DNA from: Phycisphaerales bacterium
GTDB taxonomy: Bacteria; Planctomycetota; Phycisphaerae; SM23-33
NCBI GenBank assembly: GCA_018644725.1
Contig: JABGPZ010000028.1
Span: 1-36,800 of the forward strand
DNA: 36,800 nucleotides
Reading direction: 5' to 3'
The notes beneath the pieces are model-generated. The model was not told the DNA's origin, searched no databases, and worked only from the letters and a program-made list of their open reading frames with translations. A program made the translations under genes and the position numbers. Shown here in pieces: positions 1-2,656 of this stretch. Each line of letters opens with the position of its first letter. Position 1 is the first letter of the stretch.

Positions 1-14
1 GGATAGCCTCGCAC

Positions 15-40
15 TCTAACGTCGCACGTGTCACGTTAGA
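15..40. repeat. Inverted repeat at window edge
   Basis: The 8-base arms TCTAACGT (15-22) and ACGTTAGA (33-40) are perfect reverse complements around a 10-base loop. No T-run follows on either side, so it is not a typical intrinsic terminator. It may be a protein-binding palindrome or the end of an upstream transcription unit that lies outside the window. Confidence 0.4.
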
Positions 41-78
41 GACTTGAATCCGCCTGTGAAAAAAATTATTTATTTCTC

Positions 79-107
79 TTTACAGAACGTCTCTCTTGTG
101 TTAAAAG
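79..107 (+). promoter_or_regulatory. Possible sigma-70 promoter of the RRM gene
   Basis: TTTACA (79-84), a 17-base spacer and TAAAAG (102-107) resemble a housekeeping promoter. It would start transcription near 114 and give a leader of about 130 nt ahead of the RNA-binding protein. The -10 element matches only in part, so the assignment is tentative. Confidence 0.4.
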
Positions 108-169
108 TCTCACTCGTGCATGGCAGAGTGCTGTGTGCGGATCAGATGATACGGTTCGGAGACTGTTGC

Positions 170-231
170 CCGTAGCGAGACAGCCCCATCTACCGTGACG
201 ACTGACTGACGATACTAAACTCTCGCTACGG
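170..231 (+). promoter_or_regulatory. Leader stem covering the RRM gene's ribosome binding site
   Basis: CCGTAGCGAGA (170-180) and TCTCGCTACGG (221-231) form a perfect 11-bp inverted repeat with a 40-nt loop. The last two bases of the 3' arm are the first GG of the Shine-Dalgarno GGAGG (230-234), which sits just before the ATG at 243. In RNA this would pair part of the ribosome binding site. An RNA thermoswitch or an autoregulatory site bound by the RRM protein itself is inferred; only the base pairing is seen. Confidence 0.6.
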
Positions 232-242
232 AGGCAAGAACT

Positions 243-533
243 ATGGAAAACGGAAAAAAATTGTATGTTGGCAACCTGAGCTATGGCGTTGAAGCTGGCG
301 ATCTGCAAGAGATGTTCTCGCAGTTCGGCACCGTCGAATCTGCAGTGGTCATCACCGACCGCCAGACCGGCCGCAGCAAAGGATTCGGCTTTGTCGAATT
401 CGCAACCGACGCAGAAGCTGCAGCAGCAGTCGAAGGCCTCAACGGCCAGGAAAACGGCGGCCGCGTGCTGACCGTGAACGTCGCTCGTCCCCGCGAAGAG
501 CGTCCCCGTCGTAGCTTCGGCGACCGCTACTAA
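243..533 (+). CDS. RRM-type RNA-binding protein
   Basis: A 96-residue protein made of a single RNA recognition motif. The RNP2 motif LYVGNL lies near residues 7-12 and RNP1 KGFGFVEF near residues 46-53, both with the aromatic residues that stack on RNA bases. A short Arg-rich tail (RPREERPRR) follows. Small single-RRM proteins of this kind occur in cyanobacteria, proteobacteria and PVC bacteria and are often cold-induced RNA chaperones; that role is inferred here. The ATG follows GGAGG with 8 nt spacing. The gene appears monocistronic, with a structured leader before it and a strong terminator after it. Confidence 0.93.
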   Translation: MENGKKLYVGNLSYGVEAGDLQEMFSQFGTVESAVVITDRQTGRSKGFGFVEFATDAEAAAAVEGLNGQENGGRVLTVNVARPREERPRRSFGDRY

Positions 534-553
534 GCCGACAATCGATACGATCG

Positions 554-588
554 ATAAAAAAACCCACTGCTTGCAGTGGGTTTTTTTT
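554..588 (+). terminator. Intrinsic terminator after the RRM gene
   Basis: CCCACTGC (563-570) and GCAGTGGG (573-580) form a perfect 8-bp stem with a 2-nt gap, followed by eight T. An A-run lies on the other flank, so the structure could also stop the convergent HAD gene that ends at 623. Confidence 0.93.
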
Positions 589-622
589 ATGCGCACCGCA
601 AAGGCGTGCAATGTCGGTCAAA

Positions 623-1300
623 TTATCCGCTCAGGGCGGAGAGGTCGTCGAGGGTCAGTTCGGTGAGGTTCGCAACGACACGGTCGGCCATCGTCAACTC
701 GTCCTTGGCATAGCTCGTCGCCAGCGCACAGGTTTTCATCCCCGCACCAATGGCGGACTGGAGCCCGACGGGGGAGTCTTCGATCGCGACACACTGGGCG
801 GGGTCGAGATCGCTCCCGAGGATTTCACTAAGGCGAGCAATGGCTAGGCGATAGCTCTCGGGGTCGGGTTTGGACTTCTCAACGTCGTCGGCCCCGACGA
901 TGGTCCGCACACGCGGGAGAATCTCCAGCGCCCGGCAGGCGACTTCCACTTCGATCCGCAGCGCGCCCGAGCAAATTGCCACAGGAATGCCCGCGTCGCT
1001 GGCGGCGACGAGCATTTCGACCGTGCCGGGAATGGTCTCGGTCGCGGTGGCGAGGAGGTGTTGGACGATTTGCGTCTTGGCCTCGATCAGCTCGGGGATG
1101 CTCACGGTGGCAAGGTCGACCCCCGCATCGGTGAGAATCGCCGCAAAGCCCTCGCGGTCGTCAAACCCGAGGTAGTCGGCGCAATAGGTGTCCCACGAAA
1201 AATCGACGCCCAACGGCGCGATGCTCTGGCGGAAGGCCTCAAAGTGGATCGGCTCGGAGTCCATCACGACTCCGTCAAAATCAAAAATCAATGCTTGCAT
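623..1300 (-). CDS. HAD-superfamily phosphatase (beta-phosphoglucomutase-like)
   Basis: A 225-residue haloacid dehalogenase-type hydrolase. Motif I FDFDGVVMD is at the N-terminus (Asp7 nucleophile, Asp9 acid/base), motif II is CSG, motif III lies in KSKPDP, and motif IV is IEDSPVG. The cap between motifs I and II is helical, as in the beta-phosphoglucomutase/phosphoglycolate phosphatase group. The likely substrate is a small sugar phosphate or phosphoglycolate, but it cannot be fixed from sequence. The ATG at 1300 was chosen because AGAGGA precedes it. The reading frame is open farther upstream to a TTG at 1354, but that stretch is the duplicated tail of the maturase gene. It is the last gene of the minus-strand cluster and is 72 bp from the maturase stop. 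Confidence 0.88.
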   Translation of the reverse strand: MQALIFDFDGVVMDSEPIHFEAFRQSIAPLGVDFSWDTYCADYLGFDDREGFAAILTDAGVDLATVSIPELIEAKTQIVQHLLATATETIPGTVEMLVAASDAGIPVAICSGALRIEVEVACRALEILPRVRTIVGADDVEKSKPDPESYRLAIARLSEILGSDLDPAQCVAIEDSPVGLQSAIGAGMKTCALATSYAKDELTMADRVVANLTELTLDDLSALSG

Positions 1301-1406: not shown

Positions 1407-2656
1407 CTCTTGTACTTCAATCCGCTGCCGCAGGGGCAGGGCCGGTTGCGGCTGGGCTCGACGGTGGTGTTGGCGGCCTGTTGGACGGCTTTGGCGGGCT
1501 TGAGGTTCATCAGCTCTGCGGCCGTGGGCGGGGTCTGTCCGCGCTTGAGATAGGGCACCATTTGCTCGAGAACGGGCACGGCCTTTTCGAAGAATCGCTT
1601 GAGGCCGACGCAGAAATGATTGTAGCGCGCCGAGTCGGTTCCGATTTCCGGCCGATGGTGTTTGGGGCAGCCACCCGAGCAATATTGGACGTACTCACAG
1701 CTTTTGCAAACGTCGGGCAACTCGGTCTTGAGCTTGGCAAATTCGTCGAGCTTGGGCGCTTGGACGAGTTGGCGCAATGGCGTTTCGAGGATGTTGCCGA
1801 CCTTCCACTCGGGGAACACGAAGTGGTCGCAGGCGTAGAGGTCGCCGTTGGGTTCGAGGATGTGCGCGTTGGCGCAGCGCTTGGAATAGCAGCACAGCGT
1901 CGCGCGGCCATTGAGCATGGTGTGGAGGACCGAGTCGATCAGGCGCTCGCTGATCCCGCCGACGTCGCGCGTGGCCCACAGTTCGAACGTTTCGCAGAGG
2001 AAGTCGCCATACTGTTCGCCCGTGCACGAAAAATCGGTCGGCGTACCATCGGGGTGGCGTTCGAGGATTGGGATGAACTGGACGTACTCGATTCCGCGAT
2101 TGGCGAAGTAGCGATAGATCTCGCCCGCGTGGGGCGCGTTCTGGCTGTTGAGGGTGATCAGGACGTTGAATTCTACCCCGTGTTCGCGGCAGAGCTCTAC
2201 GCCGTTCCAGGCACGGTGGAAGCTCCCCTCGCCGTTGTGGTCGAGGCGGAAGTGGTCGTGCCATTGCGGCGGGCCATCGAGGCTGATTCCGACGAGGAAG
2301 TTGTTTTCCTTGAGGAACTTGCACCATTCCGGCGTGAGGGTCGTGCCGTTGGTTTGCAGCGCGTTGTTGATTTGCTGGGTGGGGCGCTTGTACTTGTTTT
2401 GAAATTCGACAGCGGCTCGGAAAAAGTCGAGTCCTGCGAGGGTCGGTTCGCCGCCTTGCCAGCCAAATTCAACGTGGAAGGGTTGGCATTTGATGTACTG
2501 CTTGGTGTAGCTTTCGAGGACCTCGAGGGTCATGGGCTTGATGTCGCCGCCGTAGAGAAGGTCGGGCTTGTGAAGATAGTAGCAATATTCGCAGGCGAGG
2601 TTGCAGCGTCCACTGACGGGCTTGCACATAATTTGAAACGGGTGAAGCAGTGCCAT
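1373..2656 (-). CDS. Anaerobic sulfatase-maturating radical SAM enzyme with C-terminal SEC-C motif
   Basis: A 427-residue anSME that would convert the active-site Cys (or Ser) of sulfatases to formylglycine in the cytoplasm without oxygen. The radical-SAM cluster cysteines are C18-x3-C22-x2-C25, followed by a GGEPTL motif near 68-73. The SPASM region has Cys255, 261, 276, 317, 320, 326, 330 and 349 for two auxiliary clusters, and Asp277, whose equivalent is the catalytic base in the characterised clostridial enzyme. After a ~50-residue linker comes a SEC-C zinc motif (C407, C409, C418, C419), an addition to the family's usual length of about 370-400 residues. It starts 8 bp after the SpoIIE-type gene stops, so the two are probably co-transcribed. 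Its likely clients are the four Cys-type sulfatases elsewhere in the window. Confidence 0.93.
   Translation of the reverse strand: MALLHPFQIMCKPVSGRCNLACEYCYYLHKPDLLYGGDIKPMTLEVLESYTKQYIKCQPFHVEFGWQGGEPTLAGLDFFRAAVEFQNKYKRPTQQINNALQTNGTTLTPEWCKFLKENNFLVGISLDGPPQWHDHFRLDHNGEGSFHRAWNGVELCREHGVEFNVLITLNSQNAPHAGEIYRYFANRGIEYVQFIPILERHPDGTPTDFSCTGEQYGDFLCETFELWATRDVGGISERLIDSVLHTMLNGRATLCCYSKRCANAHILEPNGDLYACDHFVFPEWKVGNILETPLRQLVQAPKLDEFAKLKTELPDVCKSCEYVQYCSGGCPKHHRPEIGTDSARYNHFCVGLKRFFEKAVPVLEQMVPYLKRGQTPPTAAELMNLKPAKAVQQAANTTVEPSRNRPCPCGSGLKYKRCCGKNDTDKK

Follow-up and report, generated by a model that had tools for sequence, protein, structure and literature searches.

The RRM gene and its transcription unit

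The window, the whole stretch of 36,800 nucleotides analyzed here, has close to its beginning a gene for a 96-amino acid single-RRM protein (243..533, forward strand). The product had been called an RRM protein in the preliminary description, and a match to PF00076 (E = 7e-24) agrees with that assignment. No other protein of its type was found in the genome. The gene stands alone in its transcription unit, which is closed by an intrinsic terminator of its own, a 15-bp stem followed by a U-run (556..587, forward strand; repeat search and fold). On the upstream side, a possible promoter can be read by eye at 79..107 of the same strand: TTTACA-N17-TAAAAG, its second hexamer preceded by TG. RNA from this promoter would possibly start near 113-115 and include the whole of the leader hairpin described below. 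A simple consensus scan reported no promoter upstream of the hairpin, nor did it report the candidate at 79-107. A separate, perfect 9-bp hairpin (CTCTAACGT/ACGTTAGAG, -13.2 kcal/mol, z-score -4.3) occupies positions 14-42, at the contig start and upstream of the presumed promoter; no clear U-run follows it.

A hairpin over the ribosome binding site

The leader of the RRM gene contains a perfect 11-bp inverted repeat, with CCGTAGCGAGA at 170-180, TCTCGCTACGG at 221-231, and 40 nt between the arms. This repeat had been pointed out earlier, and its arms are exactly where they had been placed and are perfectly complementary. The 3' arm had also been said to run into the GGAGG of the RRM gene, which is indeed the case, with a stem longer than first described. 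In the predicted fold, U166-C169 pair with G234-A237 beyond a 2-nt bulge, for a total of about 15 bp (166-180 with 221-237), and because the stem continues past the bulge in this way nearly all of the GGAGG lies inside it. The 5' arm (166..180, +) is then UUGC plus CCGUAGCGAGA, that is, the perfect repeat with the predicted extension 166-169/234-237. The 40-nt loop (181..220, +) is predicted to be weakly structured, and could possibly serve as a binding platform for a trans-acting factor. The 3' arm (221..237, +), as judged from the repeat and from pairing probabilities, passes through the ribosome binding site, the GGAGG at 230..234 (+), 8 nt before the ATG. The GGAGG bases predicted to be in pairs are G230, G231/G233 and G234. 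With the downstream gene's ribosome binding site included in its stem, the element is a candidate Shine-Dalgarno-sequestering leader hairpin. No known RNA family was recognized in the leader region with Rfam 15, and the leader is present once in the genome, so that it is not a member of a repeat family.

The hairpin over the ribosome binding site exceeds chance. In 3000 shuffles of the sequence upstream of the site, the site itself being kept in place, the longest inverted repeat over it was 10 bp, and 11 bp was never reached. Among 73 genes of the same genome with recognizable binding sites (253 kb in twenty contig stretches, window included), the longest such repeat is 7 bp and none reaches 11 bp. 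The window's repeat is also the longest over a ribosome binding site among the RRM leaders compared, and it is the sole perfect inverted repeat of at least 11 bp with a 10-100 nt loop in the 36.8-kb window. Fold z-scores are -3.1 to -3.5 for 160-245 and 166-237; the stability of the whole leader (108-260) is not unusual (z-score -0.9).

Opening the site is calculated to cost 9.4 kcal/mol at 20 °C. For the 73 genes of the genome the maximum is 9.4 and the median 3.7 kcal/mol, and among the RRM leaders measured the window ranks second. The five GGAGG bases have a mean pairing probability of 0.61, because two of them alternate in a moving bulge; on this cruder measure 41% of the 73 genes are equally high. 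The masking of the ribosome binding site that had been proposed is thus supported by sequence and by folding, with an opening cost equal to that of the tightest of the genome's 73 genes. Translational control through a masked binding site is the best reading of the hairpin.

RRM genes of related genomes

Relatives were searched in 38 genomes of the order, a sample of 397 of the class and a sample of 392 of the phylum, none of them of the same genus. The closest RRM proteins in the order and class genomes are 60-70% identical to that of the window, with 70% the best in the class. No closer relative suited to a covariation test was detected in the order (38), class (397) or phylum (392) genomes, in a scan of genome contigs or in viral contigs, and the hairpin is absent from all leaders of relatives compared. 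Its arms do not vary independently in the relatives, which lack them and instead have a structured leader of another, conserved kind. A 155-kb contig from a viral collection (IMGVR_UViG_3300001398_000002) encodes at 1001-1261 of locus L180 an RRM protein 53% identical to that of the window.

In a tree of the RRM proteins the window protein falls outside a 56-row clade of proteins starting with MGKK (support 93/94), in a single alignment of 95 columns in which many forks are unresolved. The window gene may have branched off early or been acquired, and each of these histories would explain why it lacks the pseudoknot found in its relatives.

Most of the MGKK-starting RRM genes of relatives share this other leader, a hairpin plus an H-type pseudoknot. 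A 4-7-bp hairpin comes first, and after it follow CTTTC, 4-6 nt, approximately GACCC, GAAAG, an A-rich segment, GGGTC, GCCC (conserved) and an AGGAG that is left free. One helix is formed by CTTTC and GAAAG; the other, formed by GACCC and GGGTC, crosses it. The pseudoknot ends about 26-28 nt before the start codon and leaves the ribosome binding site outside. Examples of the element, about 57 nt long and represented here by a covariance model, R1, are L056:482-538(-), L097:1800-1855(-), L054:517-572(+), L004:1800-1856(-) and L133:1501-1558(+). A GCCC(A) stretch is conserved about 5-10 nt after the last pseudoknot arm, before the ribosome binding site and independent of changes in the upstream hairpin; it is possibly a single-stranded protein site.

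The covariation of the pseudoknot leader is strong. In the seed alignment of 15 leaders, 89.8% of cells pair. In 70 leaders aligned by covariance model, a fit made to the hairpin and the GACCC/GGGTC helix (and favoring both) and not to CTTTC/GAAAG, 93.5% are paired compared with 84.3% in shuffles, and none of 500 shuffles matches the observed value. Changes on both sides occur in 12 of the 17 pairs of these 70 leaders (92 cells observed, 18.8 expected), and pairing drops to 57-67% if the partner is slid by one column. If downstream parts are swapped among genomes, the median score of the second helix falls from 16 to 11.5. The CTTTC/GAAAG helix is nearly invariant, and its exceptions are compensated. 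For example, L015 has CCTTC/GAAGG, and the leaders of two more distant relatives can be read as CTTCC/GGAAG (L168) and CTTTT/AAAAG (L164).

Model R1 matches in 58 of 150 genomes of the class (E ≤ 0.01) and in six of 294 genomes of the phylum sample (E ≤ 0.001), one of the six being of the same class. In all 30 loci fetched for the strongest matches an RRM gene is directly downstream. Rfam 15 has no match at the position of the element in twenty pseudoknot-bearing loci, and the element is not mentioned in the largely open-access literature searched, in which motif surveys were covered by their articles alone. This pseudoknot leader of RRM genes is apparently undescribed so far. Two copies in one genome, 0.7-1.4 kb apart, have also been seen, perhaps with tandem RRM genes: L149 has them at 1501-1558 and at 2249-2305 (-), and contig C4 of genome G089 near 36.3 and 37.7 kb.

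The element was not found in the window or its genome. Model R1 gives no match in window positions 1-700 up to E = 10, and no convincing copy in the genome, where the best match (E = 0.071) has no RRM gene beside it; a degenerate copy was likewise not detected by the R1 search. A pseudoknot of the window's own leader in the crossing order of the relatives (150-155 with 192-197) is no better than chance (p = 0.52). Since the hairpin occurs in no relative and the pseudoknot is absent from the window's genome, the window has a lineage-specific masking hairpin where its relatives have a pseudoknot.

Leaders of other types occur as well. Two family members without the pseudoknot, L024 (genome G012) and L063 (genome G030), have no R1 match and a leader stem of their own, GCAGTCTC/GAGACTGC. 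It has 8 bp and a 20-nt loop, lies within the last 110 nt before the RRM gene, and may be accompanied by a crossing GGGT/(A,G)CCC pairing. The L063 leader also keeps its ribosome binding site tightly closed (13.3 kcal/mol). RRM genes of the MTNI type, a different subgroup, are preceded in L011, L023, L058 and L060 (family f7) by a conserved leader stretch around TCACAATCTGATCGGTCGCC...TGGAGT.

A proposed translational lock and its possible key

It is an even call whether the hairpin of the leader (166-237) locks translation of the RRM gene, with the binding site masked and a trans-acting key, likeliest the RRM protein itself, setting its state. The RNA would start upstream of 166, and the hairpin would form once the 3' arm is made, keeping initiation low. 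Opening the masked site would cost a calculated 6-9 kcal/mol. A trans-acting factor, most likely the RRM protein, could then shift the balance. By binding the 40-nt loop or its flanks the protein would reinforce the closed form, a negative feedback.

Such feedback by the RRM protein on its own leader is plausible by analogy. Three observations favor it: the structured leaders found close before the start of RRM genes in relatives, the RbpB binding site present in the rbpB mRNA of Bacteroides thetaiotaomicron (PMC11697453), and the recognition of the Chlorobi-RRM motif (RF01697), graded a probable cis-regulator, as a candidate leader (PMC2864571). With the relatives' conserved structured leader immediately upstream of the start, control by leader RNA looks general for this type of gene. 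Counting against the lock are the lack of a relative with the hairpin, the mean GGAGG pairing of 0.61 and the ordinary stability of the full leader.

The main threat to the lock is the RNA start, the sole pointer to an upstream start being the promoter candidate read by eye. With an RNA start or a cut downstream of 180, the 5' arm would be lost, the hairpin would have no role in translation, and the repeat would reflect chance or a feature of the DNA. Either a weak -10-like GATACT at 211-216 or RNase III cleavage of the stem could bring this about. The empty upstream promoter scan fits such a start, as does the lack of conservation of the hairpin in relatives; moreover, under a full lock a protein of a usually abundant type would be scarce unless the site were opened. 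However, GATACT is read without a matching -35, and the repeat lands exactly on the ribosome binding site, with none of the 3000 shuffles as long. We consider a downstream start improbable. A key other than the RRM protein, for example a small RNA, an RNA helicase or another protein that frees the site under a condition such as cold, is likewise unlikely. The long loop and very stable stem would suit a switch of this activated kind, and cold induction is known for cyanobacterial RRM genes (PMC9333190), but no complementary small RNA or factor was identified, and Rfam, at E up to 5, recognized no specific element in the loop.

Temperature control of the hairpin, which had also been suggested, does not hold up in the calculations. 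For leaders that begin at 108, 115 and 150, the predicted pairing of the binding site is nearly constant over eleven temperatures between 5 and 70 °C, and the opening energy drops only from about 8 to about 5 kcal/mol; these are model energies and not measurements, and by them the site does not open within the physiological range. An RNA thermometer, a hairpin that melts or rearranges with temperature to switch the gene on, is very unlikely because calculated pairing is so flat and the opening energy falls so little. In its favor, ROSE and fourU elements likewise hold the binding site in a stem, and a link to cold is possible for RRM proteins of this type. The one ROSE-like match, ROSE_2 at 20.3 bits (gathering threshold 65), is at 530-595 on the terminator, outside the leader. 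In the proposed lock, melting by heat or cold would not be the switch.

A broader and doubtful reading would join the two kinds of leader. The hairpin-plus-pseudoknot leaders just ahead of the ribosome binding site would be an undescribed RNA family, bound by the RRM protein, that controls the RRM genes of the class and of parts of the phylum, and the lineage of the window would have swapped in an unrelated masking hairpin, so that two RNA devices would serve the same feedback.

Comparison with known systems

Outside cyanobacteria and Bacteroides, little is known of how bacteria control RRM-type RNA-binding proteins. The window hairpin offers a candidate translational lock that can be tested. 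A stronger lead is the pseudoknot of the relatives, which is about 57 nt long, has full covariation support, is tied to one gene family and is not in Rfam 15; its binding partner may be the RRM protein encoded downstream. Hairpins over ribosome binding sites are already known as a kind, of which the window provides one instance; greater novelty lies with the conserved pseudoknot.

Leaders of ribosomal proteins include autoregulated Shine-Dalgarno-sequestering leaders of RNA-binding proteins. The window resembles them in that a stem covers the ribosome binding site immediately ahead of a gene for an RNA-binding protein; it differs in that its hairpin is known from one genome and its ligand is putative. 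The Chlorobi-RRM motif is associated with bacterial RRM genes, and the window hairpin is, like it, a candidate cis-regulatory structured RNA tied to such genes. RF01697 itself has no match in the window at the gathering threshold, in positions 1-700 at E up to 5, or in the leaders of relatives. In cyanobacteria, rbp genes have conserved boxes in the 5'-UTR (PMC9333190). ROSE, fourU and cspA-type thermometers share with the window a structured 5' leader able to mask the ribosome binding site, whereas the predicted pairing of the window is insensitive to temperature. The R1 leader, too, is structured and lies shortly before the start of an RRM gene, one homologous to that of the window. There, a conserved hairpin and H-type pseudoknot leave the ribosome binding site outside, whereas in the window a hairpin is placed over it.
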